Source of the DNA: Beijerinckiaceae bacterium
Lineage (GTDB): Bacteria > Pseudomonadota > Alphaproteobacteria > Rhizobiales > Beijerinckiaceae
Length of the DNA: 39,689 bases
Assembly: GCA_947452005.1 (NCBI GenBank)
Contig: CANGBC010000008.1
Location: 1-39,689, forward strand
Direction of reading: 5' to 3'
Shown one piece after another: positions 3,381 to 36,433 of the stretch. The notes under the pieces are model-generated. The model was given only the letters and a program-made list of their open reading frames with translations. It ran no database searches and was not told the origin of the DNA. A program made the position numbers and the translations under genes. Within the stretch, counting starts at the first letter, position 1. Every line of letters starts with the position of its first letter.

Positions 3381-3455
3381 GCCGGATTAGCTCAGCGGTA
3401 GAGCAGCGGTTTTGTAAACCGAAGGTCGGGAGTTCAATCCTCTCATCCGGCACCA
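3381..3455 (+). tRNA. tRNA-Thr (TGT)
   Basis: A complete 75-nt cloverleaf with acceptor GCCGGAT/ATCCGGC, anticodon loop TTTGTAA (anticodon TGT, threonine), T-loop TTCAATC, discriminator A and an encoded CCA at 3453-3455. It sits 84 nt after the MFS terminator and must have its own promoter. Confidence 0.97.
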
Positions 3456-20071: not shown

Positions 20072-20115
20072 GAAGCCGTCTTAGCTGATTTCAGCCGCCA
20101 TTGCGAGGCGGGCCT

Positions 20116-20222
20116 CGTCATTGCGAGGAGCAAGGCGACGAAGCAATCCATGGCGTCACGCCTGACGCCATACACCCGACCATGGATTGCCGCGTCGGGC
20201 TAAAGCCCTCCTCGCAATGACG
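20116..20222. repeat. Dispersed palindrome, copy B
   Basis: CGTCATTGCGAG ... CTCGCAATGACG with inner arms GAAGCAATCCATGG/CCATGGATTGC. A partial extra unit CCATTGCGAGGCGGGC precedes it from 20098. The spacer word ACGCCTGACGCCA is shared with copy D, and both copies lie just beyond a porin terminator. Confidence 0.85.
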
Positions 20223-20224
20223 GA

Positions 20225-20282
20225 CAAAAGAAAAACCCCGGTGATTGCTCACCGGGGTTCTCGAAAAGAGAGGAAACCTCTC
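20225..20282 (-). terminator. Porin 1 3'-UTR: stop-proximal hairpin plus intrinsic terminator
   Basis: After the porin 1 stop codon the minus strand has GAGAGG-TTT-CCTCTC (282-268). Then comes an 11-bp stem AACCCCGGTGA/TCACCGGGGTT (259-234) with loop GCAA and tail TTTCTTTT. The two-hairpin arrangement recurs after porins 3 and 4. Confidence 0.92.
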
Positions 20283-20290
20283 AGATCAGA

Positions 20291-21700
20291 TCAGAACGTG
20301 CGCTCGACGCGGAGACGGCCGGTCAAACCGTTGTCCGTCTTGGACTCGGTGCCTGTCGTGTACTTCACGTCCTGCTTCACGCGGTTGTAGAGAACATCCA
20401 CGCCAATTTCGAAGTCCTTCGTGGGAATGAAGGCGTACTGCGCGCCAACGTTCCAGGTCGTGCCATCACCGAAGCCCGATGTGCCGGACCAAATGAGCGC
20501 CTTAGCCGAAGTCGGAGCCTTCCATGCGCCATAAGAAGCGAGGAACGACGTACGATGCTGCGGTGTGAACCAGTGCTGGAAGATACCCGCAAGGTTCCAA
20601 GACTTCACAGATTCAATGCCAGTGTTGTAAGCAACAATGGAAGGCGGGTTGATCACAAAACCGCCAGAATTGCGCTTCGTGTCTGACGACTTGAAAGAGC
20701 CCCAGTTGATCGTGTATTCAGTCATGCCATCGGCATAACCACCGTCAAACCACAGCGCATCACCAGCCGCGAGCTGCGGAAGGTTGATCTTGACGCCAGC
20801 GCCAGCCGCCCAAACCTGCTTGGACTTGCTATAGGCAACGGGGTCAACTGTACTTGCGCCATCAACAAGCTTGTAGCTGTTGGTTGCAGCCTTCACAGCC
20901 ACCGAACCCCATGACTGATCCCAGTCGAGGCGTGCGTTGATCTGGGGAACGCCACGATATGACGCATAGACATTCTTGCCAGTGACTGTGGTCACGGCAT
21001 CAACCGTAGGCTTGCCAGCGGTGTAAGCCGGATCCTGGAAGCCCAGCGTAGCGGAGAAGCCACCACCGAGAACCGCGGTGTACGAAATGCCGTTCGAGCC
21101 GTTGGCGAATGAAGCCCAGTGACCCGCGCCGTAGAAGATCGACGGCATGAACGAGAAGTTGTCCTTGGCGTTACCGAAAGTGAAACCAGCGAAGCGAATG
21201 TAGGACGCTTCGAGCGTTGCTGACGGAGCCGACGTGTTGATGGAGTTGTTCTTGGCGGGATCAGCCGGATCGGTCTGAACAGCCGAGTCCTGAAGGACGC
21301 CGGTGGTGCGAGCGAGACGAACCGATGTCACTGCCTGAACCGTGCCATAAGCCGTGGGGGTACGAGCATCGAGGTCAATACGACCACGAACTTCCGAACC
21401 GAACTGATTCTGGCTGCCCTTGTTCAGCTTCAAGACGGAAGTGCCCTGCGCAGTGCCAGCTGCCAGCTTGTCGTAGACGTCCTTCGCCTGCGAATACGAA
21501 TAGTCAGCACGCACACGGCCGCCGACCTTGATGCAGGTGTCAGTGCCGGGGATGTTGAAGAAGCCCGCGCCGTAGGCGTCGCAGACCTTCACGTAATTGA
21601 CGGGGGCGGCCTTCTTCGAGGGAAGATCGGCTGCGTTGGCGCCGGCAACCGCGACGAAGGCGGTGGCGGAACCGAGGAGAAGGCTCTTGGCGAGCTTCAT
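20291..21700 (-). CDS. Porin 1 (Porin_2 family outer-membrane porin)
   Basis: A 469-residue trimeric beta-barrel porin for passive uptake of small hydrophilic solutes. ATG 21700 follows GGAGG by 6 nt and starts a Sec signal peptide (MKLAKSLLLGS to GANA, about 1-23). The mature N-terminus ADLPSKKAAP precedes the two conserved cysteines in VKVCDAYGAGFF and GTDTCIKVGGR. The protein ends in an aromatic residue (RVERTF), the usual assembly signal for outer-membrane barrels. It is the closest relative of truncated porin 3 by shared internal blocks and identical terminator. An inverted repeat 19 nt before the ATG may affect translation or regulation. Confidence 0.95.
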   Translation of the reverse strand: MKLAKSLLLGSATAFVAVAGANAADLPSKKAAPVNYVKVCDAYGAGFFNIPGTDTCIKVGGRVRADYSYSQAKDVYDKLAAGTAQGTSVLKLNKGSQNQFGSEVRGRIDLDARTPTAYGTVQAVTSVRLARTTGVLQDSAVQTDPADPAKNNSINTSAPSATLEASYIRFAGFTFGNAKDNFSFMPSIFYGAGHWASFANGSNGISYTAVLGGGFSATLGFQDPAYTAGKPTVDAVTTVTGKNVYASYRGVPQINARLDWDQSWGSVAVKAATNSYKLVDGASTVDPVAYSKSKQVWAAGAGVKINLPQLAAGDALWFDGGYADGMTEYTINWGSFKSSDTKRNSGGFVINPPSIVAYNTGIESVKSWNLAGIFQHWFTPQHRTSFLASYGAWKAPTSAKALIWSGTSGFGDGTTWNVGAQYAFIPTKDFEIGVDVLYNRVKQDVKYTTGTESKTDNGLTGRLRVERTF

Positions 21701-21735: not shown

Positions 21736-22006
21736 CTCGTTTCAATGAAAGGCCCTTGGGTCGTGCGCCTTGAAATGCGTGGCGCGAGACCAAAAGAGCC
21801 CCGATCCGACCCCTGCCCGCCCAACGGCACGCAGAACCCGAACGCCCCGAGGGAATCTCGGAGGCATGGCCAGAACGTAACCATGAGCTTTATGTTCGTC
21901 TCGGAGAAAGTGACGACTTTTTCTGGAACGGCCACTTTTCGACCACAAGCGTGGCCATCCGGCCACAGTTGGCGGTGGGTCATCCACAGGGGGGCGGATT
22001 CAGTTT
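21736..22006. other. Intergenic upstream of porin 1
   Basis: No credible gene is seen between porin 1 and dispersed palindrome copy C. The stretch should contain the porin 1 promoter, but no clear -35/-10 pair stands out. Several weak open frames overlap it and look fortuitous. Confidence 0.6.
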
Positions 22007-22117
22007 CGTCATTGCGAGGAGCAAAGCGACGAAGCAATCCAGGGCGCAACAGGCTGAGATCAGGGCCAAGACCCGTCAGTGGATTGCCGCGTCGGCCTAT
22101 GGCCTCCTCGCAATGAC
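22007..22117. repeat. Dispersed palindrome, copy C
   Basis: CGTCATTGCGAG at the left and CTCGCAATGACA at the right, with inner arms GAAGCAATCCA/TGGATTGCC. Its central spacer differs from copies A, B and D. Confidence 0.85.
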
Positions 22118-22160
22118 AATCGGCCCGGGATTTCGCCCGAGCCGCTTCGCAACCTCGTCC

Positions 22161-22192: not shown

Positions 22193-23650
22193 TCAGAACG
22201 TCCGCTCAACCCGCAGGCGGCCGGACCAATTGCCGGTCGTCTCGCGCGTCACCACGGTGGCTGGCACGCCCACGCCCACAGGGGCCGTGTTGGTGCGCCG
22301 GACATCCTGCCCGACGCGGTTGTAGAGAAGATCAACACCAATCTCGAAATCCTTCACCGGGATGAAAGCGAGCTGCGTGCCGATGTTCCACATGGTCTGA
22401 TTGCCAAACGCGCCCGATGTGCCAAACGGAATCGCCGACGTCAGATCTGATCCTTCCACACGACCACCCGACACAAGGAAGGAGTGGCGCCATTGCGGCG
22501 TCCAGAAATGCGTGTAGATCGCCGCCAGATTCCACGAGCGCAATGTATCAATGGTGATGTTGCCATTGGGCTCAAAACGATTGACCCATGAAATGCCATT
22601 GTTCACAAAGCCACCCGTGTTGCGGCGCGTGTCAGAGGATTTGAAATAGGTCCAGTTGACTGTGTATTCCGTCATGCCATTGGCATAAGCGCCATTGAGC
22701 CAGAGCACATCACCGGCGGCAATCATCGGCAGATTGATCTTCACGCCAGCACCCACAGCCCAGGTCGCTTTGCGATCATTCAGATCAGCGCCTGCGCCAG
22801 AAACGCCTGCGGCCGTGGTGGCAACCGCTTGTCCGACAGCCCCCATCACAGAGGCCGTGCCCCAGGTCTGATCCCAATCCAGTCGCAGATTGAATTGCGG
22901 AAGCGTGTTGTAGGCATATTGTTCAGCCGGCGTTGGTCCCGTCACAAAAAGTCCGGTGATGGGATTGATCGAGCCGACCGCATTGGTGCCACCCAATGTT
23001 GTGTCCGTGGCATCCTGCATGGCGAGTGTGGCCGACAGGCCACCACCCAGCACCGCCGTATAGGCAATCTGCTTGGCACCATTGGCGAAGGAGGCCCAAT
23101 GTCCTGCGCCATAAAAGGTCGAGGGCATGAAGGCGAAATTATCGCGCGCGGCACCGAAGGTGAATCCGGCAAAGCGAATATAGGCCGCCTCCAGCGTGGC
23201 TCCCGCCGAGCTGGACGAGAGGCCATAAGCCGTATCCAGAATGCCGGTTGTGCGCGCCAGACGAATGGCCGCCACCGCCTGCACCGTGCCCCAGCCGGTC
23301 TGCGTGCGCGCATCGAGATCGACGCGGCCGCGCGCTTCCCAGCCATAGACGTTTTCAGAGCCCGAGGAGGTGCCAAGTGTATTGGTCACCACGCCGGTCG
23401 CCGTATTGATGGTGGCGCCCGTGTAAATGGCCTGGCGCCCCGACATGGCAAAATCAGCCCGCACGCGCCCGCCGACCCGAATGCACGTATCCGTGCCCGG
23501 GATCACATAAAAGCCCGCCCCATAGGCGTTACAAACCCGGACATAGTCCACCGGCGCTGCCTTGCGAGAAGGCAGATCCGCAGCAGCGACGCCCGTCACG
23601 GCCACAAAAGCCGAGGCGGAACCGAGGAGAAGGCTCTTGGCGAGCTTCAT
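22193..23650 (-). CDS. Porin 2 (Porin_2 family outer-membrane porin)
   Basis: A 485-residue outer-membrane porin. The ATG at 23650 follows GGAGG with 7-nt spacing; a TTG two codons earlier is rejected. The signal peptide MKLAKSLLLGSASAFVAVTG is cleaved before ADLPSRKAAP. The two cysteines (VRVCNAYGAGFYVIPGTDTC) and C-terminal VERTF are present. It is more divergent from porins 1, 3 and 4 than they are from each other and has another 3' end, so it is an older paralogue. The gene lies 165 bp from the end of integrase 1. Confidence 0.94.
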   Translation of the reverse strand: MKLAKSLLLGSASAFVAVTGVAAADLPSRKAAPVDYVRVCNAYGAGFYVIPGTDTCIRVGGRVRADFAMSGRQAIYTGATINTATGVVTNTLGTSSGSENVYGWEARGRVDLDARTQTGWGTVQAVAAIRLARTTGILDTAYGLSSSSAGATLEAAYIRFAGFTFGAARDNFAFMPSTFYGAGHWASFANGAKQIAYTAVLGGGLSATLAMQDATDTTLGGTNAVGSINPITGLFVTGPTPAEQYAYNTLPQFNLRLDWDQTWGTASVMGAVGQAVATTAAGVSGAGADLNDRKATWAVGAGVKINLPMIAAGDVLWLNGAYANGMTEYTVNWTYFKSSDTRRNTGGFVNNGISWVNRFEPNGNITIDTLRSWNLAAIYTHFWTPQWRHSFLVSGGRVEGSDLTSAIPFGTSGAFGNQTMWNIGTQLAFIPVKDFEIGVDLLYNRVGQDVRRTNTAPVGVGVPATVVTRETTGNWSGRLRVERTF

Positions 23651-23815: not shown

Positions 23816-25003
23816 CTAAGGCTTGGGCGGTGTGGGGCTAGGGCTTGAGGCTGGGGTCCGGGCCGTTTTCCACATTTGGGGAAAGCGCACCAAAGCCCTG
23901 TGGACGGACGCGATTCCGGGTCGGCGAAAAAAGTTGATCGGATGCCTCACTAGGGTCGGCACCCCCATTTTGGACAGGTCTGACGCCCTCCCCCACCCCA
24001 ACGGACAAAAGCCTTTTGGACGCGGCACCTTGATCTTACGATCTGGTGCCAGATGGGCGTAGCGTTGTGTCGTCAAAACATTGGAATGGCCCAAAGCTTC
24101 CTTCACATCATAAATCGTCATGCCATTGTTGATCAGCGCGGAGGCAAAGGAATGGCGCAGGTCGTGGATGCGCACATCCGCCAAGCCGGCAGCGCGGCGG
24201 CAGCGGTTCCAGGCGTGGAAAATCGTTACATAAGGTTTGCCCGTTTCAGGACTGGGAAAAATCCACACAGCGCTGGCTGACAGATCCCGCACAGATTGCA
24301 GCACAGACAGCGCTTCATCAGACAAAGGCACGCTGCGTGGTTTTCCAGATTTCGTAAAGGGGATCGTCCATAGGCGGCGGGTCAAATCAATGTCGCGCCA
24401 GCGCGCATCCAAAGCCTCGCGTTTGCGCGCGCCCGTGAACAGCAGAAACGGCACGATATAGCGCAGCATATAACTGCCGCACGCCCGGATCTCGCGCATC
24501 AGGCGCTGCGCTTCTTCGGGCGACAGATAGCGCTCCATTTTTGGCGGATCTTTCAGCAGTTTCACGCCCCGCGCCGGGCTTTGCTTGAGGCCATCGACCT
24601 CCCATTCAATCGCCTTGGCGAGCGTCACTTTCAAAATCGATAATATGCGATTGACCGTACCTTTGGCGTAGCCGGCGGCTTTCTTCTCCGCCACCAGCGC
24701 CAGAATGGCGCTGCGGTCGATGCAGCCCATCGCGCGATCGCCAAAAGCGGGCAGCAAATGGCAGCGCAAAATAATGTCCTCCCAATGGGCGCTGCGTTTG
24801 GCAGCGCGCGCATAGGGCAAATAGCGCTGCGCAATGAAGGCGCGATAGGTCAGGCCCGATGGGGGCGGCACTGGATCGGGCGCGGCCTCGCGCGCCCTGA
24901 GCAACAGGTCGCTCACCACCTGACGCAAAGCCGAATTTTCGGCGCGCAGACGGGCGAGGTCTGGGCTGTCTGAAAATTCTCTCGTATTGCTATGGCTTTG
25001 CAT
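23816..25003 (-). CDS. Tyrosine recombinase (site-specific integrase) 1, altered C-terminus
   Basis: A 395-residue phage-type integrase. The N-terminal part (15-40) is a coiled-coil-like stretch (LARLRAENSALRQVVSDLLL), not the DUF4102-like arm domain of integrase 2. The SAM-like core-binding domain spans about 52-140. The catalytic domain carries R193 (TGARKRE), K218, H280 and R283 (HDLRHSF), H306 and nucleophile Y315 (TTQRYAHL). All catalytic residues are present. After residue 320 the similarity to integrase 2 stops, and a 75-residue Pro/Arg-rich tail continues that looks like read-through into non-coding sequence, so a lost original stop is likely. ATG 25003 is chosen over TTG 25006. Host-like G+C suggests long residence. 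Confidence 0.88.
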   Translation of the reverse strand: MQSHSNTREFSDSPDLARLRAENSALRQVVSDLLLRAREAAPDPVPPPSGLTYRAFIAQRYLPYARAAKRSAHWEDIILRCHLLPAFGDRAMGCIDRSAILALVAEKKAAGYAKGTVNRILSILKVTLAKAIEWEVDGLKQSPARGVKLLKDPPKMERYLSPEEAQRLMREIRACGSYMLRYIVPFLLFTGARKREALDARWRDIDLTRRLWTIPFTKSGKPRSVPLSDEALSVLQSVRDLSASAVWIFPSPETGKPYVTIFHAWNRCRRAAGLADVRIHDLRHSFASALINNGMTIYDVKEALGHSNVLTTQRYAHLAPDRKIKVPRPKGFCPLGWGRASDLSKMGVPTLVRHPINFFRRPGIASVHRALVRFPQMWKTARTPASSPSPTPPKP

Positions 25004-25032
25004 CAAGGCGGCCAGTTCTGTCGGTTGGCATT

Positions 25033-25096: not shown

Positions 25097-25217
25097 ACCC
25101 TATCGGACAGACTGTTGCAGACCGGGTTTTTTGAGAAATCTGGCTCACACAACAGATGCGCTGATTTTTGGACACTTTATTCTGGACACTTCTCTTGAAC
25201 CGGACGGTTTTGCGGAA

Positions 25218-25784
25218 ATGATGATCGGCTTTATGCGGGCGTTAGCTTCTCAGCCCGAACAGATCGAGCTCCAACAGCGCGCGCTTGAAGCGGCGGGCGT
25301 CGTGAAATTCTTCTCGGCCATCGGCGATATGACAATTGCAGAGCCCACGATCCATGGGCTGCTCGATTTTGCGCGCGAAGATGATGTGATTGTCATCACC
25401 AGTCTGGATCGCCTGGCGGGCACAGTGCGCCAGCTCTGCGATATTCAGGAAATTCTGGCGCGCAAGAACATCGCATTGCAGGTGCTAGACCTTGGGCTGG
25501 ACACGCGCACGCCAGAGGGGGCGGCGATGATGGGCTTTCTGCCGCATCTGCGCCTGATGCGCCGGCGTGGCTATCTGGACGCGCAACGCGAAGGCATTGT
25601 CGCCGCGCAAGCGGCGGGTCGGTACAAGGGCCGCAAGCCCACGGCGCGGGCCAAGACGCCGGACGTGCTCAATGCCTATCGGCTAGGCCGCACCGTGGCG
25701 CAAATCGTGCGCGATACAGGGATCGGGCGGGCCAGCGTCTATCGCATTCTGGAAGCCAATGGCCTGTGGGCGCGCCAGAATTAA
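25218..25784 (+). CDS. Serine recombinase-family protein with altered active site
   Basis: About 188 residues from ATG 25218; an in-frame TTG at 25131 is possible but adds a stretch unlike the family. The resolvase fold is clear from IGFMR near the N-terminus, SLDRLAG (normally KLDRLxR), TPEGAAMM, the long E-helix ending REGIVAAQAAGRYKGRKPT, and a C-terminal helix-turn-helix (AQIVRDTGIGRASVYRILEANG). In the usual YARVSTxxQ block the sequence is FMRALASQPEQ, so the nucleophilic serine aligns with leucine. The second arginine of DRLxR is glycine, and the catalytic glutamate region is RLMRRRG. Catalysis is therefore probably lost while DNA binding is kept. It is divergent from integrase 1. Confidence 0.8.
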   Translation: MMIGFMRALASQPEQIELQQRALEAAGVVKFFSAIGDMTIAEPTIHGLLDFAREDDVIVITSLDRLAGTVRQLCDIQEILARKNIALQVLDLGLDTRTPEGAAMMGFLPHLRLMRRRGYLDAQREGIVAAQAAGRYKGRKPTARAKTPDVLNAYRLGRTVAQIVRDTGIGRASVYRILEANGLWARQN

Positions 25785-27538: not shown

Positions 27539-27624
27539 CGCAATTGGTCCCGCAAAGCCCAAATAGATGGTCCGTGCGAGCGTTAGCGAAGCCACCTCGT
27601 CTTTGCAACTAGGGACGCGCGCCT

Positions 27625-27730
27625 CGTCATTGCGAGGCGCAAAGCGACGAAGCAATCCACGGCGGAACGCCTGACGCCACACATGCGACCATGGATTGCC
27701 GCGTCGGCCGACGGCCTCCTCGCAATGACG
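27625..27730. repeat. Dispersed palindrome, copy D
   Basis: CGTCATTGCGAG ... CTCGCAATGACG with arms GAAGCAATCCA/TGGATTGCC. The spacer ACGCCTGACGCCA plus CGACCATGGATTGCCGCG is nearly the same as in copy B. Both lie at the same place relative to a porin terminator, so the palindrome was duplicated together with the porin 3' flank. Confidence 0.85.
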
Positions 27731-27735
27731 GACAC

Positions 27736-27790
27736 ACAAAAAAACCCCGGTGATTGCTCACCGGGGTTCTCGAAAAGAGAGGAAACCTCT
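27736..27790 (-). terminator. Porin 3 3'-UTR: hairpin plus intrinsic terminator
   Basis: Same layout as after porin 1: stop-proximal GAGAGG/CCTCTC hairpin, then AACCCCGGTGA/TCACCGGGGTT (768-743) with loop GCAA and a TTTTTT-type tail. Confidence 0.9.
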
Positions 27791-27799
27791 CAGATCAGA

Positions 27800-29088
27800 T
27801 TAGAACGTGCGCTCGACGCGCATACGGCCGGTCCATGCACCGTCCGAACGCGAAGTCGTCGATGTCGCAGCTGCGGTCAGAGCCACATCCTGCTTCATGC
27901 GAGCGTAGAGAGCTTCCACGCCGATTTCGAAGCCAGCGGTCGGGAGGAAGGCGTACTGAGCGCCAACGTTCCAGACGGTGCCGTCGCCGAAGCCCTTCTT
28001 GCCGTCCCAGGCGAGAGCCTTGGCGGAAGTCGGAGCCTTGAAGCCGCCGTAGGTGGCAAGCAAGGTCGTGCGGTGCTGCGGAGCGAAGAAGTGCTGGAAG
28101 TTAGCAGCCAGGTTCCACGACTTCACGGTTTCGATGCCGTTTGCGTAATCGATCACGGAAGCCGGGTTGAAGCCCAGGCCCGCGATGTTGCGCTTGGTGT
28201 CCGAAGACTTAGCATTGCCCCAGTTGATCGTGTATTCGGTCATGCCGTCGGCATAGTTTCCTTCGAGGTAGAGAGCATCACCAGCCGCGAGCTGCGGGAG
28301 GTTGAACTTCACGCCTGCGCCAGCTGCCCAAACCTGCTTGGAATGCGAAGCCAGCGGCAGACCTGATGACAGCGTGCCGTCAACGAGTTCATAACGCAGT
28401 GTTGCTGCCTTCACAGCCACCGTACCCCACGACTGATCCCAGTCGAGGCGAGCGTTGATCTGCGGGATTGCGGTATAGCGGAAGAAGGGGTCGCCGGCGA
28501 CGCCGCCGTCGAGGGGCTTACCAGCGGTATAAGCCGCATCCTGGAAGCCGAGGGTCGCCGAGAAGCCACCACCGAGAACCGCTGTGTAAGCGATTGTGTT
28601 GGTGCCGTTGGCGAAGGACGGCCAATGTCCAGCGCCGTAGAAGATCGACGGCATGAACGCGAAGTTGTCCTTGGCGTTACCGAAAGTGAAACCAGCGAAG
28701 CGAATATAAGCAGCTTCGAGGGTCGCAGCAGCGGCCGAAGAGTTGATGGTGACAGCGGTGGTGCCGTCAGCCGGATCCTTCGCCATCGACGAATCAGCGA
28801 GCACGCCAGTCGTACGAGCGAGACGGATCGAGGTCACAGCCTGAACCGTGCCGTAAGGGGTGGGGGTACGAGCGTCGAGGTCAACGCGACCACGGACTTC
28901 CGAACCGAACTTGTTCATCGCGGAAGCGCCGGTCTTCAGCGCAACAGCGCCACCCGTGACGGTGCTGACGTCCTTAGCCTGCGAGTAGGAATAGTCAGCG
29001 CGAATGCGGCCACCCAGCTTCACGCAGGTTTCGGTGCCGGGGATGTTGAAGAAGCCCGCGCCGTAAGCGTCGCAAACCTTGACGTAAG
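27800..29088 (-). pseudogene. Porin 3, 5'-truncated porin body
   Basis: Porin_2 family coding sequence without a start, signal peptide or promoter. Reading from 29088 it begins at codons for YVKVCDAYGAGFF and continues intact to RMRVERTF and stop, closely resembling porin 1. Beyond 29088 similarity to porins stops abruptly, and an in-frame TGA appears nine codons upstream of the TAC of YVKV. An internal ATG at 29023 would give a 407-residue protein lacking export signals, so a functional product is unlikely. The break coincides with the end of a 31-bp repeat shared with porin 4. Joining to 34784-34886 would rebuild a complete 463-residue porin. Confidence 0.9.
29058..29088. repeat. 31-bp direct repeat, left copy (attL candidate)
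   Basis: GCGCCGTAAGCGTCGCAAAC followed by CTTGACGTAAG is identical to 34753-34783. It encodes the conserved YVKVCDAYGA segment of the porin. Divergence from porin 4 begins at the very next base (29089). Confidence 0.85.
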
Positions 29089-29176
29089 TCCTCAGGGAAT
29101 ATGCTCACTAAGTGTTTGAAAGAATCCAACAAATGTCAGCGTAGTGAATCAAGAAGTCTGATTCCGTCTGCAAAAT

Positions 29177-29281
29177 GGTCTCCAGAAGGCCCTCACAAGC
29201 CTCCTGAGAGGCGACACACAGCCTTGCTGATTGTGTGTGCCATATGTTGACACCGGTAGACGGGGGAAGCCTCTGGAGACC
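29177..29281. ncRNA. Multi-helix structured segment, candidate ncRNA or recombination site
   Basis: Closing stem GGTCTCCAGA (177-186)/TCTGGAGACC (272-281), 10 bp perfect, extended by GGC/GCC. It encloses the hairpin GCCTC-CTGA-GAGGC (199-212) and the hairpin ACACACA/TGTGTGT (214-220/232-238) with an 11-nt loop. Three perfect helices in 105 nt suggest a folded RNA or a DNA site with cruciform potential. Strand and function unknown. No credible open frame lies here; 29089-29528 otherwise holds only the inverted repeat at 29396. Confidence 0.45.
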
Positions 29282-29395
29282 TACATGCAAACAGGGCTGA
29301 GAGATATTGGCTCAGTTTTTGGTTCAGTCTCTGAAATTGGTTCTGGCAACGCAGGGTGAGGGAGGCTCAGGTGATCCCTTATGACCCCCTATTAA

Positions 29396-29486
29396 GGAGA
29401 GGGTGAACATAGGCATACATAGATCAATGATTATTGTTGTTACCTATAGACCTAACTGATGATGCTTACACATCTTCACCCTCTCC
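29396..29486. repeat. Long inverted repeat after the polymerase-like gene
   Basis: GGAGAGGGTGAA (396-407) and TTCACCCTCTCC (475-486) form a 12-bp perfect inverted repeat around a 67-nt AT-rich centre with a nested ATAGG/CCTAT. It lies 43-133 nt beyond the minus-strand stop at 29529. It may be a transcript end for that gene or part of a replication or recombination site. Confidence 0.45.
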
Positions 29487-29528
29487 CCCCTCACCTTAGT
29501 TCTTACCCCACTGTTTAGCTCATACCCT

Positions 29529-30860
29529 TCACTCTGTGCTGACTGGAATGTTCACTCCAGTTAACTCCAAGGCTACCTCCTCCATTATCTCCCGTGTCTG
29601 GTCTTCGAAGCTACAAGAGACAACCAACCCATCATGGATAGGGAGACCAACAATACCCTCCTGTTTCAGTCTGAGGAGGATTCCTACCATGATGCTGCTC
29701 TCAATGAATTGCAGCTTGTGGCAGATGGCTGTGCTGAACATAGGAATGAGCGCCGGGTGTCTCTCTGAGATATCGGCTATGAGTGTTTCTATCGGTCTTG
29801 GTGGGAGGAGGTCCTTAGTCCCCTGAGGTTTCCTCCTCAGTGGCTTCTCCGAAGACAGGAGAGAATTGAGAAGCTTCTTGATCCCCGGCCGGTAGACAGG
29901 GTGATAGTCCCCTAATTGGTAGAGATCACCTTCAGGTGGTTGAGCCTGTGACAAGCTGTATGCAAGGCGAACAGAGATTTGACCGAAGTCGAGACCTACC
30001 GTCTCTTCCTGATTGATGAGGATTGTGTATCGATCATCCTTCTTCATTTTCTGCCAGAAGCCACCGAATAGGCGGCCACCTGTCTCGAACGAGCCTCTAG
30101 TGAAGACCCTGCGTAGGCTTCTGTCTGACACTTGTGTGCGAGAGGCTAACTCTGGGTCACCGATTTCGATGTCAGCTTGTTCTAGCCAATCATTGATCTC
30201 GACTATCTGACTGCGGAGTGAACCTGTGAGATTGGTCTCCTCGTAGTCTAGGTATTGTCCTTCATCCCGATGGTCCTGCTTGGGAGCTTTCAGGACAACC
30301 AGTTCCTTGAAGGGTCTGCGTCCGATGTCATTGAGCGTGACACTGTAGAACTCAGTGCGATCAAGGATGCGCCACCCCGGCCAGATCAGGCTTCTTTGTC
30401 CACGGTTAGCAAAAGACTTCTCATGACCAAGCTCAAACCTGATGAAGTCTATCTCAGGGGTTGCCATGATCTTGACGATGTCAGGCAGCTTGCTGGAATA
30501 GACCGGTGAGCGATAGCGGGATTTCTTTTCCAACACGGTGTTCGACAGAGAAACAGCAGTCCCTCTTTGGTCTTGAGACAGGTGGGCAAAGACCATGTCG
30601 CAGATGATTGCCTCAACGGTCTGCTCAAAGGTTTCCTGATCCTTCGGTTTCCTCGCTCTCGTCCGAAGCTGAAAGTGTTTCTCGTAGCTGGCGACCATGC
30701 CTTGCGCTTCTTTGACGATAGCTTTCAGCTTGTCGCTATGGGCAATCCTCCATGGATCGAAGAACCGGTCTTTGGTGAGCTTGATGTCTCCATTGGCGTC
30801 GTATTCGACACCCTCTGGATCAGCTTTAGGCATGAGGGATCGTTTGGCTCTGGTGTCCAT
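29529..30860 (-). CDS. Divergent family-A DNA polymerase-like protein, unknown role
   Basis: A 443-residue soluble protein, not assignable to a named family by me. The C-terminal half has an ordered set of blocks: RRVFTRGSFETGGRLFGG (250-267); GLDFGQISVRLAY (289-301), like polymerase-A motif A (DxSQIExR); RPGIKKLLNSLL (324-335), where the O-helix R/K would be; LQFIESSIMVGILLRL (383-398); and LPIHDGLVV (406-414), like motif C (VHDE). The putative catalytic acids are D291 and D410. No exonuclease domain is visible. Such palm-like proteins occur on phages and plasmids, so a role in replicating the element is plausible. Start: ATG 30860 with AGG upstream. The low G+C and codon use fit foreign DNA. 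Confidence 0.6.
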   Translation of the reverse strand: MDTRAKRSLMPKADPEGVEYDANGDIKLTKDRFFDPWRIAHSDKLKAIVKEAQGMVASYEKHFQLRTRARKPKDQETFEQTVEAIICDMVFAHLSQDQRGTAVSLSNTVLEKKSRYRSPVYSSKLPDIVKIMATPEIDFIRFELGHEKSFANRGQRSLIWPGWRILDRTEFYSVTLNDIGRRPFKELVVLKAPKQDHRDEGQYLDYEETNLTGSLRSQIVEINDWLEQADIEIGDPELASRTQVSDRSLRRVFTRGSFETGGRLFGGFWQKMKKDDRYTILINQEETVGLDFGQISVRLAYSLSQAQPPEGDLYQLGDYHPVYRPGIKKLLNSLLSSEKPLRRKPQGTKDLLPPRPIETLIADISERHPALIPMFSTAICHKLQFIESSIMVGILLRLKQEGIVGLPIHDGLVVSCSFEDQTREIMEEVALELTGVNIPVSTE

Positions 30861-31052
30861 TTAAAACCTACCTGTGGGGCTTTAGGAGAGTCGGTGGCGA
30901 GCTTTGTTGCCCGTGGGGTCAAAGGGTGGCCGAGGACGAAATAGGCCGTCCTGAGTCAACTGTGGGGCTAGTTTTAGCTAAGTCTCTGATCTGAATCCGA
31001 GATCGCGTTTTTCAGTCAACTCTTGACTCAAAATGGGTGAAAAGCGTCTCGC

Positions 31053-31425
31053 TGTTAGTGGGACCTTTAGGCCCAGATCGGAGGCTTTTGCTGTCATAGT
31101 AGGCTGGAGGGTCGGCATCAGCACATGAAGCTGAATGGAGGCGTATCTAACCCCTGTCAGCTTTGTGCCGCTCTTGCCGACAAGGTTTCTGATCTAGTGG
31201 GATCGGTAAGCCCTTATGACTCAAAATGAGCGCCTAGCTTTTGCTGTTATAGTAAGGGGTTGTGGTCAGTCGTGTCTAAGCTGATCAGATTGTTATAGTG
31301 AGAGGGTAGCCTCATTGGATCAGCTTCCCACGCCCTCAAGTTTATTGGGGGCTTACGCTCAATCCAGCCTCTTGTTGTTAGTGGGAGGGGTCGTACGGCA
31401 GCGGTCGTGCGGTTAGTGGTAGGGG
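31053..31425. repeat. Iteron-like repeats in the polymerase/integrase intergenic region
   Basis: The gap 30861-31604 (744 bp) has no convincing gene. It holds six related words on the plus strand: TGTTAGTGGGACC (31053), TGTCATAGTAGGC (31092), TGTTATAGTAAGGGG (31245), TGTTATAGTGAGAGG (31291), TGTTAGTGGGAGGGG (31376) and GGTTAGTGGTAGGGG (31411). GACTCAAAATG also recurs (31025, 31218). The array resembles origin iterons or integrase/regulator arm sites, and it lies between divergent promoters. Confidence 0.55.
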
Positions 31426-31604
31426 TCGCGCTCCGTCCCTAAAAAATACCGCCTCGTTCAAGCGCACATGACTCAGATTGAGTCCCGTTCCCCAGAACGC
31501 CTGTGGATTTGATTCCAAATGATTCCCGCTGATTCCGACAGGGCTTGGCGAGTGAGTCTTAGCCCACCTAGTCTCGCTTCACTTTCCGACCCAAGGAGCC
31601 AGAC

Positions 31605-32762
31605 ATGGCGCAGAGCCTTTCCCAGTCCCTCGTGGACGCATTGTCGATTCAATCTGGTCGCCGCTTATTGGCAGACAGCGACTGCAAGGGTCTCTACCTT
31701 GATCTGCGACCACGAGGGAAAAGCTGGCGCTTCCGTTCAACAGGTGTGGGCGGAAAGCTCATCTCGATCACCATCGGAGATGCGGGGAAAATCAGTCTTG
31801 AGGCAGCAAGACGCAAGGCCCATCTGCTTGGCTTCCAGAAGTCCTCGAAACCTGTACTGCCTAGTTCAGGGGCTGAGGTGACTTATAGGGAGTTTGTCCA
31901 CTCTCGTTATCTCCCCTATGCCTTCGCGACCAAGAAGGCTGCCCCATGGGAAGAGATCATTCAGCGTGTTCACTTGCTCCCTGCCTTTGGAGATTATCCT
32001 CTGCATGAGATTAGCAAGGGCCTGATCAGCAGCTTCGTCATGAGTAAGCAGCAAGCTAGCTACAAGGCTGGCTCTATCAATCGAATGATCTCGATCCTGA
32101 AGGTGTCGCTCACCAAAGCAGTCGAATGGGAGGTGGGAGGTCTTGAGGCTAGTCCTGCCAAGGGCGTGAAGCTTCTCAAAGACCCACCCAAGCTAGATCG
32201 CTATCTCACGCCAGAAGAGGCCAAGAGGCTGCTTGGTGAACTGCGATCAAGCAAGGCACCAATGCTGCGCTTCATCATTCCCTTCCTTTTGTTCACAGGT
32301 GCAAGGAAGAGAGAAGCCTTGGATGCGCAATGGAAGGACATTGATTGGGCTAATCGCCTTTGGCTGATCCCTATCACTAAATCAGGTAAGCCAAGAGTGG
32401 TCCCTCTGTCAGATCAGGCCATACAGGTCTTGAACCAGACGAAGTCAGAGCTGGAGACACTTGGACTGGGTGATGTGAAGTGGGTCTTTCCCAATCCTGA
32501 CACAGCCAAGCCTTTTGTGGGCATTTTCCACTCGTGGAACAAATGCAGACAAGCGGTTGGTTTAGGTGAGGTTCGTATCCACGACCTTCGTCACTCATTC
32601 GCCTCAGCTTTGGTCAACAGAGGCATGACCCTCTACGACGTGAAAGAGGCGTTAGGCCACTCCAACATCCTCACGACCCAAAGGTACGCTCACCTATCCC
32701 CCCAGCGTTTGAGAGATGCTGTGAGGCAAGCAGGTGAACACTATGGGGATGGGATGAAATAA
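31605..32762 (+). CDS. Tyrosine recombinase (site-specific integrase) 2
   Basis: A 385-residue phage/island-type integrase. Residues 1-80 form an N-terminal arm-binding, DUF4102-like region (GLYLDLRPRGKSWRFR). About 92-180 is the core-binding domain. The catalytic domain has R234 (TGARKRE), K259 (TKSGKPR), H326 and R329 (HDLRHSF), H352 and nucleophile Y360 (TTQRYAHL); the set is complete. AGGAG 6 nt before ATG 31605 supports the start. The core and catalytic parts are well over half identical to integrase 1 at 23816, but the N-terminus is unrelated and the C-terminus short and normal. It probably mediates integration and excision of the surrounding element. The stop lies about 10 bp from a porin 3'-end remnant. 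Confidence 0.92.
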   Translation: MAQSLSQSLVDALSIQSGRRLLADSDCKGLYLDLRPRGKSWRFRSTGVGGKLISITIGDAGKISLEAARRKAHLLGFQKSSKPVLPSSGAEVTYREFVHSRYLPYAFATKKAAPWEEIIQRVHLLPAFGDYPLHEISKGLISSFVMSKQQASYKAGSINRMISILKVSLTKAVEWEVGGLEASPAKGVKLLKDPPKLDRYLTPEEAKRLLGELRSSKAPMLRFIIPFLLFTGARKREALDAQWKDIDWANRLWLIPITKSGKPRVVPLSDQAIQVLNQTKSELETLGLGDVKWVFPNPDTAKPFVGIFHSWNKCRQAVGLGEVRIHDLRHSFASALVNRGMTLYDVKEALGHSNILTTQRYAHLSPQRLRDAVRQAGEHYGDGMK

Positions 32763-32771
32763 CGGGATTGG

Positions 32772-32865
32772 ACAAAAGAAAAACCTCCGGTGATTTCTCA
32801 CCGGGGTTCTCGATCAGAGAGAGTAATCTCTCAAATCAGATGAGAACGTGCGCTCGACGCGCATA
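32772..32865 (-). pseudogene. Remnant of a porin 3' end and terminator
   Basis: About 90 bp nearly identical to the 3' end of porin 4 (33425-33515). It comprises codons for RMRVERTF, the stop-proximal GAGAG/CTCTC hairpin and the terminator arms. The porin stop codon TAA is changed to TCA and the terminator stem has mismatches, so this copy is decaying. Similarity ends at GCGCATA (32865). It now lies downstream of the ykgJ-like gene and may still end its transcript. Confidence 0.85.
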
Positions 32866-32895
32866 GGAACCGCTGGTTACAAGGGCGGCTGCAAA

Positions 32896-33399
32896 TTAAT
32901 CCGAGACGTCAAGCTCGTAGCTAATATCTCCGAGCTTGCGGACTACACGCAACGACACGTTTTTACCTTCGTCTTGGCTGGGAATATTGATCTCTCGATC
33001 AGGAAGCAAAAATAAAGACCGCTTACCGCATATGACTCGCATACTATTGTTCTTAGCAAGTAAGCTTGCCGATGCCTGAATCAGCGTTTGGTAGTATTTC
33101 GGCTGCCGCCATGCGAGAGGCGCAGATGGATCAGCCATCAGCACAACGTTGCCATTAGCCTTCAAATATAAATAGAACTTAGCTTCGCTGGGATGCCACT
33201 CTGGCCCAAGGCGTTCATCCCAAGTCCAAATGCAATAGAAACCACGGCAAGGCGTAGGTCTGTTCGGGTAGTTTTCACAACCTTTCCCGGGCTTGGCATG
33301 ACGGCACCACTTGCCCTGAGGTTTATTGAGTTCAGCTATCGAGGGCAGCTTACAACATAACATGCAGGTGCCACATGCGCGCTTATATGTTTCGGTCAT
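32896..33399 (-). CDS. YkgJ-family cysteine-cluster (zinc/iron-chelating) protein
   Basis: A 167-residue protein with an N-terminal cluster of eight cysteines: C9, C12, C15, C16, C32, C41, C51 and C56. The opening CGTCMLCC and later NRPTPCRGFYC are typical of the YkgJ/UPF0153 group, predicted to chelate zinc or iron. The remaining sequence is mixed alpha/beta with no signal peptide. GAGGGG precedes the ATG at 33399. The gene is boxed between two direct copies of a porin 3' end (32772 and 33425), as if captured there. The biochemical role of the family is not settled. Confidence 0.8.
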   Translation of the reverse strand: MTETYKRACGTCMLCCKLPSIAELNKPQGKWCRHAKPGKGCENYPNRPTPCRGFYCIWTWDERLGPEWHPSEAKFYLYLKANGNVVLMADPSAPLAWRQPKYYQTLIQASASLLAKNNSMRVICGKRSLFLLPDREINIPSQDEGKNVSLRVVRKLGDISYELDVSD

Positions 33400-33424
33400 G
33401 ACCCCTCATCCCTAACCTTAATCA

Positions 33425-33482
33425 AAGAAAAACCCCGGTGATTGCTCACCGGGGTTCTCGATCAGAGAGAGTAATCTCTCAA
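33425..33482 (-). terminator. Porin 4 3'-UTR: hairpin plus intrinsic terminator
   Basis: AACCCCGGTGA/TCACCGGGGTT (456-431) with a U-rich tail, preceded on the minus strand by the stop-proximal hairpin GAGAGA/TCTCTC. The closing pair of that hairpin is A-T here but G-C after porins 1 and 3, a compensatory change. Confidence 0.9.
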
Positions 33483-33488
33483 ATCAGA

Positions 33489-34886
33489 TTAGAACGTGCG
33501 CTCGACGCGCATACGGCCGGTCCAGTTGCCCTGCGAAACGTTTGCAGCTGGAGTGGCCGAGTTCGAGTTCGAAACGCGAGCGTAGAGAGCTTCCACGCCG
33601 ATTTCGAAATCCTTCGTCGGAAGGAAAGCGATCTGCTTGCCAATGTTCCAGACCTTGGCATCAGCATAACCGCCAGTAGTCGTGCCCCATGTAGCGGCAT
33701 TAGCCGTAGCAGGAGCATTGATGGAACCGTACGAAGCCAAGAAGGCCGAACGCCACTGCGGAGCCCAGAAATGGGTCATGACAGCAGCCACATTCCACGA
33801 CTTGAACGTTTCAATGCCAGCTGCGCCAGCGCCAAACGACGGATGGTTCGATACCACACCACCAACGTTACGAGCGGTATCCGACGACTTGAACGAGGTC
33901 CAGTTCGTGGTGTATTCGGTCATGCCGTCAGCATAAGCAGCGTTGAGCCAGAGAGCATCGCCAGCTGCAAGCATCGGCAGGTTGATCTTGGCGCCAGCGC
34001 CAACAGCCCAGACCTGCTTCGTCTTGTTGTAGGTGGTCGTGTCCTTAGCAGACGTCACCATCTGCACATTGGCAGTCGCGCCCATCACAGACAGCGTACC
34101 CCATGACTGATCCCAGTCGAGGCGACCGTTGATCTGCGGGATGCGGTTGTAGCTGTTCTGGATAGCTTCCTGCCAGCTGGTGCCGGTAGCTGCAGTAATA
34201 ATCGTCGACGAAGGCGAAGAGGCCGCAGTAGCGGCGACCTGACCAATGCCACCGAGGCCGGTGTAGCCATAGTCCTGCAGAGCGAGCGTGGCCGAGACGC
34301 CGCCGCCGAGGACGGCGGTATAGGCAACCTGGAACGCGCCGTTAGCGAATGAACCCCAGTGACCTGCGCCGTAGAAGGTCGAAGGCATGAATGCGAAGTT
34401 GTCCTTCGCGACACCGAAGGTGAAGCCAGCGAAGCGCATGTAAGCAGCTTCGAGCTGCGGCGAAGCCGAGCCAGCCTTGCTGTCAGCGCCAGTTGCAGCG
34501 AGAACGCCGCTGGTGCGGTGAACGCGAGTCGAGAAGACAGCCTGAACCGTGCCGTAAGCGGTCGGTGTACGAGCGTCCATATCGAGACGGCCGCGAGTTT
34601 CATTACCCCAAGTGGCCTGACCATCAGCCAAGGTAGCTACTGAGGTTGCGGACTTCGTGTAGGAGTCCTTGCTAGCTGAGTAGCTGTAGTCAGCGCGAAC
34701 GCGACCACCGACCTTGATGCAGGTGTCCGTGCCAGGAATCGTGTAGAAGCCTGCGCCGTAAGCGTCGCAAACCTTGACGTAAGAAACAGGCGCTGCCTTC
34801 TTCGAGGGAAGGTCGGCTGCGTTGGCGCCGGCAACTGCGACGAACGCGGTGGCCGAACCGAGGAGAAGGCTCTTAACGAGCTTCAT
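33489..34886 (-). CDS. Porin 4 (Porin_2 family), possibly chimeric
   Basis: A 465-residue intact outer-membrane porin. ATG 34886 is preceded by GGAGG. The signal peptide MKLVKSLLLGSATAFVAVAG is cleaved before ADLPSKKAAP. Cysteines VKVCDAYGAGFY and GTDTCIKVGGR are present and the protein ends RVERTF. Codons 1-35 lie outside the 31-bp repeat, and the rest lies inside the proposed element, so the 5' end, promoter and signal may belong to the host gene whose body is now porin 3. The body differs from porins 1 and 3 mainly in loop regions (about 85-110 and 190-230), where surface-exposed strands are expected. Confidence 0.94.
   Translation of the reverse strand: MKLVKSLLLGSATAFVAVAGANAADLPSKKAAPVSYVKVCDAYGAGFYTIPGTDTCIKVGGRVRADYSYSASKDSYTKSATSVATLADGQATWGNETRGRLDMDARTPTAYGTVQAVFSTRVHRTSGVLAATGADSKAGSASPQLEAAYMRFAGFTFGVAKDNFAFMPSTFYGAGHWGSFANGAFQVAYTAVLGGGVSATLALQDYGYTGLGGIGQVAATAASSPSSTIITAATGTSWQEAIQNSYNRIPQINGRLDWDQSWGTLSVMGATANVQMVTSAKDTTTYNKTKQVWAVGAGAKINLPMLAAGDALWLNAAYADGMTEYTTNWTSFKSSDTARNVGGVVSNHPSFGAGAAGIETFKSWNVAAVMTHFWAPQWRSAFLASYGSINAPATANAATWGTTTGGYADAKVWNIGKQIAFLPTKDFEIGVEALYARVSNSNSATPAANVSQGNWTGRMRVERTF
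34753..34783. repeat. 31-bp direct repeat, right copy (attR candidate)
   Basis: Identical to 29058-29088 and in the same orientation. Paralogous positions in porins 1 and 2 differ at several bases, and the porin 3/4 identity drops on both sides of the 31 bp, so the match is more than family conservation alone would require. Confidence 0.85.
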
Positions 34887-35236: not shown

Positions 35237-36433
35237 TCAGCCAAAAACCGGGGAAAGGGGTGGCAACATGGGAGAATCGTCGGCCTCAGGCTCATGGCGA
35301 GCCGCCCATTGGCGCGAGGCGGCCCGCGCTGATTCCATTTCCAGCCGCCCCAATAAGACCAAAAGCCGTTGGCGCTGATCGTCAGGCAGATCTTCGGCGG
35401 CTTTGCGTGCCAGCGCGACGAGACGGGGCTGTGGGGCATCGCCCGGCGTGCTCGAGCTGCCGGCCAGCGCATTCAGCAAGGTGCGGAACACAGGGCGCAG
35501 ACCGTCTGGCAATTGCGAGCGCCCGTAGAGCGCGGCAAAGGACGTCGCATCCGGATCATCCAGTATCAGCATGACGCGCGGGAGAGATTGCTTGGTCAGA
35601 TCTGCCATGGCTGCGGCGAGCATCAGACGGTCTCCGCACACAAGCGAGCGCAGCAGCAAGCCCGGAGTGAGTTGTCCTTGCGCGCGCAAATGGCGCACGA
35701 GCGAAAGCGCAGCACCCGCCGCGCCGCCCTGCTCTTCGCCCGCATCCTGCGCATTCATGGAGACGATGAGTTTCTCGCGCGCATCGCGCAGCACGCGCTC
35801 GCCGCGCTCGGGTGCCAGCCATCCCGTTTGTTTGACGAATTCACCCAAGGCCAGGCTGACCGCCTCGGCGATCAACAGACGCACAGAGCGTGGTGTTTCG
35901 GGGCGCAGCAGCAATGCTTCACGCAGACGCCCATCACTGCCTGCCCGCTCCATCATGCGCAGCATGACATCTTCCGCCAGATCAGCTTGTGAATTGCGCG
36001 CCAGTTCGATCAGCACACAGGGCGCGCCGGTTTCCGCCAAAGCCAAAGCCACAGACGCCGACACATCCGCGCGCCGCGCAATCGCCATTTGCGCGCCCAC
36101 CGGGGCCGTCAAAGCCAGATCGCCGAGTTCCGCTTCCAGAAACAAATCGGAATGTTGCAGGACAATGGCGGCAATCTCGCTTTGCTCGGCCGCCAGCGCG
36201 TGAATGATATGACGCGGCGCGCGCGGCTCGCGTGCCAGCCCTTCGGCTATCGCGCGACGCACCAGAGGCGAGGCATCATCGAGCATAATGGTCAAAATGC
36301 TCTCGACCTCTGCCGTTTCGGCGTCTGTCAATTCCATATGCAAATAGTCACAGATCAAGGATGCGAGACCGGCGGCGCGCGCGGAAGCGGAGGCTTCACG
36401 GGCAAAGGCGAAGAAATCCTGGCTGATCTGCAC
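35237..36433 (-). CDS. DUF2336 domain protein
   Basis: A 398-residue soluble, almost all-helical protein with HEAT-like repeats (ASPLVRRAIAEGLA and similar). This is the DUF2336 pattern widespread in alphaproteobacteria, with no established function. The reading frame suggests GTG at 36433; no ATG lies upstream in frame, the next in-frame ATG would remove about 32 residues, and no strong ribosome-binding site is seen. It is divergent from the CitE-like gene. Confidence 0.82.
   Translation of the reverse strand: MQISQDFFAFAREASASARAAGLASLICDYLHMELTDAETAEVESILTIMLDDASPLVRRAIAEGLAREPRAPRHIIHALAAEQSEIAAIVLQHSDLFLEAELGDLALTAPVGAQMAIARRADVSASVALALAETGAPCVLIELARNSQADLAEDVMLRMMERAGSDGRLREALLLRPETPRSVRLLIAEAVSLALGEFVKQTGWLAPERGERVLRDAREKLIVSMNAQDAGEEQGGAAGAALSLVRHLRAQGQLTPGLLLRSLVCGDRLMLAAAMADLTKQSLPRVMLILDDPDATSFAALYGRSQLPDGLRPVFRTLLNALAGSSSTPGDAPQPRLVALARKAAEDLPDDQRQRLLVLLGRLEMESARAASRQWAARHEPEADDSPMLPPLSPVFG

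Follow-up and report, generated by a model that had tools for sequence, protein, structure and literature searches.

A 39,689-nucleotide stretch of DNA from a Beijerinckiaceae bacterium (the window), which is contig C8 of a draft genome of 58% completeness, holds an outer-membrane porin gene, porin 3, that lacks its 5' end, and a complete one, porin 4. The segment between the breakpoint of porin 3 and the corresponding codon of porin 4 carries a tyrosine integrase gene, int2. Judging from the sequence, this is probably an integrative element that docks in porin codons by means of int2 and swaps the porin body. Whether read as a mobile element or as a resident switch, the locus is, on the same evidence, a porin-body exchange device. 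We infer that int2 is the recombinase and active, and that swapping the body changes what can bind to or pass through the porin. Below, the head is the start codon, signal peptide and first codons of a porin gene, the body is the remainder, headless porins are bodies without a head, and the core is the repeated sequence where head and body meet. Coordinates are given in Table 1.

A porin gene cut at a repeated core

The window has four Porin_2-like genes, all on the minus strand, of which porins 1, 2 and 4 are complete and porin 3 has no start. The Porin_2 profile (PF02530) gave porins 3 and 4 scores of 164.1 and 140.5 bits, with a curated cut-off of 22. The original prediction held that porin 3 is cut exactly at the end of a 31-bp direct repeat shared with porin 4, and this was borne out: with up to three mismatches allowed, the 31-mer was found exactly twice in the window, in direct orientation and without a mismatch. 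The number of 31-mer repeats expected by chance was 0 (100 shuffles), a test that makes the repeat look more surprising than it is, both copies being conserved porin codons. Over the core, porins 3 and 4 agree at 31/31 positions; porin 1 differs from both at four positions (27/31), and porin 2 has 21/31 in common with them. A chance repeat was ruled out by the shuffles and by the 31/31 match as compared with 27/31 for paralogues.

The frame upstream of porin 3 contains stops and no porin head. Joining the outer flanks (103 + 1289 nt) rebuilt the porin frame that had been predicted, with 464 codons including the stop codon and no internal stop. The resident 103-nt head is in frame with both porin bodies, which are identical at 246 of 409 residues, and the exchanged part of 1,295 nt makes up ~93% of the porin. 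By protein, the nearest relative of porin 3 in the window is porin 1 (70-72%), and just downstream of the core these two genes have a 32-bp exact run in common. Such a mosaic around the core is what site-specific recombination would predict, and gene conversion could also yield it.

The GC content is 50-53% from ~29.0 to 33.5 kb, compared with 59-61% for the two porin bodies and ~56-62% for the DNA outside. The int2 protein has both a Phage_integrase and an Arm-DNA-bind_3 domain, in agreement with the claim that the element carries a complete tyrosine integrase. Integrases with Arm-DNA-bind_3 (P4-like) usually target tRNA genes; the int2 element does not lie at one, and the sole tRNA gene of the window is at 3381-3455.

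Headless porins and related integrases in other genomes

Scanning contigs with int2 alone found no relative, and scanning with an alignment of three integrases found four loci, including a contig of genome G020 and Rhizobiales bacterium TNE-4 (order Hyphomicrobiales). The first TNE-4 locus (TNE-4 #1) has, in order, a complete porin, a convergent integrase at its 3' end, cargo, and a headless porin on the strand of the first porin. Its integrase is 53% identical to int2 and has the arm-binding domain, and its cargo comprises a helicase-like gene (616 aa) and a serine recombinase. Both porins contain a perfect repeat of 81 bp, which starts at the same codon as the window repeat. The element measures 6,536 bp, and its new body agrees with the old one at 201 of 384 aligned residues. 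As far as the sequences go, TNE-4 #1 shows the layout of the window independently, and this recurrence is the strongest new evidence. A second locus, TNE-4 #2, has a headless body and an integrase, with no partner core in the stretches searched.

We found at least nine headless porins: porin 3 of the window, one at each TNE-4 locus, and one each in G896, G865, G831, G022, G026 and G031. Headless-looking rows from G030 (masked N) and from G445, G433 and G022:C226 (cut by contig ends) were dropped. All nine start at an x|TACGT junction in conserved x-Tyr-Val codons; the breakpoint in G031 is less sure, with the bases just before the junction resembling a head. No stop codon was found in the assembled part of any of them (the G031 gene is cut by a contig end), which argues that they are recent, re-usable or both. 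Simple decay of the 5' end of porin 3 was ruled out by this one junction common to nine headless genes. The G022 headless porin begins ~0.1 kb after a related integrase, whereas G026 and G031 gave no related integrase at the cut-off of the genus search.

That search (51 genomes, E ≤ 1e-40) and a family search (298 genomes, E ≤ 1e-50) together gave 14 related integrase loci, in G000 (two), G006, G020, G022, TNE-4 (two, as G837), G831, G850, G865, G884, G896, G898 and G948. Thirteen of them form one clade with support of 99/95 in a tree of 39 rows, made without seven very long-branched or short rows of an earlier tree; the G022 integrase fell outside the clade in the earlier tree and inside it in the later one. 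The original prediction had proposed looking for this integrase next to porins in other genomes, and a porin indeed lies within 1.2 kb of it in 11 of the 13 clade members and within 250 bp in 8 (G006 not counted). One of the 11 is int1, a second integrase gene of the window that lies 379 bp from porin 2. The weakest case is G850, because its porin is a fragment 1.2 kb away. In G948 and G884, the two members without such a porin, the integrase is ~0.7 and ~0.2 kb from a contig end, and in G006 the distance is 0 kb. Among 34 other integrases, 12 of them from the window's own genus, none had a porin in the examined stretch, which for 26 was ~1.5 kb or less per side. As the integrase loci are related by descent, these adjacency counts are not independent events. 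The further claim, that the element inserts at N-terminal porin codons, strands the body and supplies a new one in frame, gained from the recurrence of codon and layout in TNE-4 and from the headless porins next to relatives of int2.

Farther afield, integrases in eight class-level genomes were 30-36% identical to int2 or to the TNE-4 integrase, with no porin adjoining. In plasmid and phage collections the integrases were at most 37.5% identical among the matches listed (20 of 32 and 20 of 28 records), and viral contigs scanned with A2, P0004, P0012 and the core pattern yielded one 24%-identical integrase or nothing. The arm-binding domain was not found in the G020 integrase open reading frame (ORF).

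These results bear on the possibility that porins 3 and 4 are ancient tandem genes and that an unrelated element inserted between them, deleting the 5' end of porin 3, the repeat being conserved coding sequence. Both copies are indeed conserved porin codons, and tandem porins are common in this genus. However, nine headless porins with one breakpoint, the same layout in TNE-4, the link to one integrase clade and a core identity above the paralogue level make this account very improbable.

The resident locus was sought in relatives through the DUF2336 gene that flanks it. A relative of this gene adjoins a porin head in G012 (87% identical), in G020, G025 and G001 (37-47%) and in G026 (58%). The porin runs past the core in G012, G020, G025 and G001; those of G012 and G026 end at contig ends, the latter after 129 bp. 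DUF2336-flanked porins that continue past the core in relatives point to an old resident locus and a derived interruption. The predicted uninterrupted porin has a partial counterpart: beside the orthologous DUF2336 gene, G012 carries an uninterrupted porin that shares the head and the 31-bp core (0 mismatches), but its body matches neither porin 3 nor porin 4.

Two draft genomes fork at the core. In G026, one contig has the DUF2336-linked head and a body start, another has a non-porin flank and the same body start, and the identity of the two begins exactly at the core and continues for 129 bp to the contig end. In G020, the contig with the head overlaps the end of a 12-kb contig by exactly 149 bp, and the 12-kb contig begins one base before the core. 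Such forks hint that one body start occurs in two contexts, either within a mixed population or as two genomic copies. An assembly artefact, in which different porin copies were joined at a repeated codon stretch, must be weighed here, as the source genome is a draft and, in relatives, several contigs with porins break off at this codon or close to it. We give it hardly any credence, since the TNE-4 layout lies inside a 1.63-Mb contig of a record not labelled as a metagenome-assembled genome (MAG) and headed and headless pairs in inverted orientation lie inside contigs of three further genomes. Between two end-placed porin bodies on a G020 contig (L064:2543-10625; G020:C70), genes resembling tricarboxylate transporter subunits and cupin-type dioxygenases were seen by eye, and a transporter gene of similar kind comes after the headless porin in G022.

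Integrative element or resident switch

The integrase loci fall into two layouts. In layout A, the integrase converges with the 3' end of the porin, and the headless body is direct where the far end is visible; it is found in the window and TNE-4 #1, with consistent parts in G020 and G898, and these integrases group at 89/72. In layout B, found in G896, G865 and G831, a headless body lies 74-235 bp from an integrase that is divergent to it; the headed porin is inverted, with cores 2.7-5.0 kb apart. The exact core identity in layout B spans 59 bp in G896, 8 bp in G865 (GAGTACGT) and 10 bp in G831 (TTGAGTACGT), and the bodies are identical at 279/355, 221/363 and 163/398 residues, respectively. 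Their integrases form a subclade with that of TNE-4 #2 (97/87). In a further 10-60 kb around each of TNE-4 #2, G896, G865 and G831, no direct-repeat partner core was found. From its sequence, layout B appears to be the arrangement of a DNA-inversion switch, in which inversion would trade the bodies on the head.

A resident porin switch would make the integrase a chromosomal switch recombinase acting on an ancestral invertible pair or array of bodies with one shared head, and the direct repeat of the window a rearranged product capable of deletion only. Layout B, with its inverted pairs, its nearby integrase and its subclade shared with TNE-4 #2, speaks for such a switch, as do a P0005 homologue between tandem porins in G025 and the presence of int1, a paralogue of int2, within the same porin cluster. 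On the other side, the segments of the window and TNE-4 #1 are bounded by repeats and hold mutually unlike cargo, the backbone in the window is low in GC, and int2 and the TNE-4 #1 integrase have the arm-binding domain. Moreover, relatives of the cargo gene P0004, present in 7 of 100 other genomes and close to an integrase in three (G033, G001 and G053), adjoin unrelated integrases. On balance we consider the resident switch unlikely for the window.

Several observations weigh against the integrative element. The inverted layout in three related genomes makes the resident switch a real rival. The exact empty site was not found in relatives, and the body in G012 resembles porin 3 no more than it does porin 4. 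The G006 integrase lies outside the clade, near a Pseudomonas fluorescens integrase, with no porin seen nearby. A degenerate porin 3' end and P0005 lie between int2 and porin 4, which indicates that the region was rearranged and that porin 4 may be a later homologous exchange. Lastly, the TGACTCA sites described next lie only on the int2 side of the window element, ~1.9 kb from the far junction. The degenerate 3' end, with its terminator, suggests a relic of an earlier porin body and hence an element that has changed its own body before; the element would formerly have ended in another body, with porin 4 and P0005 gained by homologous exchange.

When the window element and the TNE-4 element were compared in their non-coding DNA, TGACTCA was the top shared 7-mer, and we regard it as a candidate arm site. 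It was first spotted by eye, and in 0 of 300 Markov shuffles was any 7-mer shared as well. Four of the five copies in the window and all four in L122 lie inside the elements; the TNE-4 element has copies near the junction and at the integrase.

For the integrative element, we propose the following course of events. int2 would act on Porin_2 genes by recombining a short site within their 5' coding region, at the x-Tyr-Val codons (x|TACGT). The excised circle would carry the element end, the core and a promoterless porin body, in that order. Recombination with a resident core would place the incoming body in frame behind the promoter, signal peptide and head of the resident gene, and would strand the old body at the other end, without start and signal; excision would restore the old porin gene. 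By analogy with known systems, this mechanism appears well supported.

Porins often serve as phage receptors and as gates for solutes, and superinfection exclusion or niche switching, as first proposed, may be the function of the exchange. One recombination step would change the cell surface while regulation and export are kept and reversal stays possible, and it would help to explain the varied porin paralogues behind a near-constant head in this group. We lean slightly towards a broader view, that one recombinase clade in this Hyphomicrobiales family uses the Tyr-Val pair of Porin_2 as a universal docking socket, serving both body-bringing mobile elements and resident inversion switches. If so, one enzyme family would link integrative elements and inversion switches, and porin identity would be a modular trait, open to horizontal and reversible exchange, with phages or solutes as plausible sources of selection. 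Testable systems include TNE-4, which has two such loci.

Phages can carry porins of their own, such as Lc of phage PA-2; here too the porin arrives on a mobile element and may alter sensitivity to phages. Lc is added as a whole gene, whereas in the window the incoming body is fused to the existing head and the old body is put out of use. In the DNA-inversion model for Omp1 of Dichelobacter nodosus, site-specific recombination could reportedly alternate outer-membrane-protein bodies that share a single expressed 5' end. One headed 5' end with an alternative headless body is found in the window, G896, G865 and G831. Inverted sites of the Omp1 or shufflon type were found in the latter three; the core copies of the window are direct, and the window further differs from the Omp1 model in its element cargo and its Porin_2 proteins. 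The inversion model for Omp1 is cited in PMC5903667.

Our element extends these inversion switches as well as the known replacement-carrying integrases of icd and dusA. In common with the latter, the integrase lies in the element, the direct repeat is inside a coding gene (31 bp; 81 bp in TNE-4) and the target gene is kept whole. According to the available passages of PMC4482086, dusA-associated tyrosine integrases likewise dock in the 5' end of a conserved gene, and their islands replace the 5' end of dusA and keep the gene whole. There a housekeeping gene receives a new 5' end, whereas in the window the resident 5' end stays in place and a diverged body takes over ~93% of a surface protein. 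In icd integration, as excerpted from PMC10111431, attP also carries replacement coding sequence and the target gene still works, with identity blocks of up to ~250 bp; the part replaced here is 1,295 nt, its sequence differs, and related loci are inverted. PinQ, a serine recombinase, also ties site-specific recombination to phage adsorption at porins: its inversion blocks T2 adsorption by making a receptor-blocking chimeric protein, and in the accessible text of PMC12529663 the porin itself is not exchanged. Among the matches listed in open-licence literature, we found no description of integrase-driven porin-body exchange, which is weak evidence.

Cargo, int1 and other features

Table 1. Features of the window discussed in the text
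Feature	Position	Strand	Basis or remark
Proposed integrated element	29089..34783		5,695 bp including one core copy; repeat, frame, GC
Core copy, old-body side, 31 bp	29058..29088	-	exact repeat
Core copy, head side, 31 bp	34753..34783	-	exact repeat
Resident head (start codon, signal peptide, first codons), now driving porin 4	34784..34886	-	103 nt
Porin 3, old body without head	27800..29088	-	reading frame intact
Porin 4	33489..34886	-	complete ORF, 465 aa, spans core
New body (porin 4 minus head), element-borne	33489..34783	-	Porin_2
int2, tyrosine integrase, 385 aa	31605..32762	+	Phage_integrase + Arm-DNA-bind_3 domains
Candidate integrase arm sites TGACTCA/TGAGTCA (n=4)	30952, 31024, 31217, 31469 (span 30952..31475)		shared 7-mer
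P0004, cargo gene, function unknown	29529..30860	-	PHROG 4756
Degenerate porin 3' end + terminator, stop codon lost, next to int2	32780..32865	-	95% to 33428-33513
P0005, small gene	32896..33399	-	weak PHROG 9155 match
DUF2336 gene, flank of resident porin locus	35237..36433	-	domain match + relatives' neighbourhoods
Porin 1	20291..21700	-	complete; nearest window relative of porin 3
Porin 2	22193..23650	-	complete; context
int1, int2 paralogue (63%)	23816..25006	-	379 bp from porin 2; without arm domain region
Stretch at int1 3' end	23880..24034	+	homologous to flanks of headless porins in G026, G031

P0004 had no match in the phage collection, and neither P0004 nor P0005 had one in the defence library. 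At E ≤ 1, no solved structure was matched by P0004 or by porin 4. The lone structure model of P0004 was uninformative (mean pLDDT 32.4); by eye, the protein is reminiscent of what we take to be features of family-A polymerases, which we do not put forward as an assignment.

The int1 gene is probably what is left of an older element of the kind that carries int2. When the stretch at its 3' end was compared with the flanks of the headless porins in G026 and G031 up to the core, 0 of 300 shuffles reached either score. The G026 and G031 flanks matched each other more weakly when compared directly (7 of 300 shuffles reached the score), and the flanks in G022, the window element and TNE-4 showed no such match to that of int1 (61 to 293 of 300 shuffles). 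A serine recombinase of the resolvase family adjoins int1 (25131-25784, plus strand); the serine recombinase of the TNE-4 element was compared with it via shared family matches only. Dispersed repeats of the 'cattgcgag...ctcgcaatgac' kind adjoin porin genes of the window at 20100-20230, 22000-22125 and 27620-27740.

More distant integrases were also seen beside genes for surface-like proteins. In P. fluorescens PS723 (G447:C29, ~27.2-70.8 kb; L125, L137, L138, L149), a 42%-identical integrase adjoins a 5'-truncated surface-protein-like gene. A 585-aa DUF4214 gene ~41 kb away on the same strand has the missing 5' part, and the stretch shared by the two genes starts abruptly; the interval between them holds phage-like genes by eye, and the identical core is only ~13 bp. 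At this locus the body of a different surface protein may be swapped in the same way. In a MAG of Burkholderiaceae (L124:980-5817), a repeat-rich surface-protein-like ORF lies divergent to a 43%-identical integrase; the frame of the ORF is open upstream towards the integrase with no evident start, possibly a headless surface gene by eye. Another 43%-identical integrase (L086:3972-9485; G129) diverges from a surface-like ORF of 1171 aa with a seemingly intact start.

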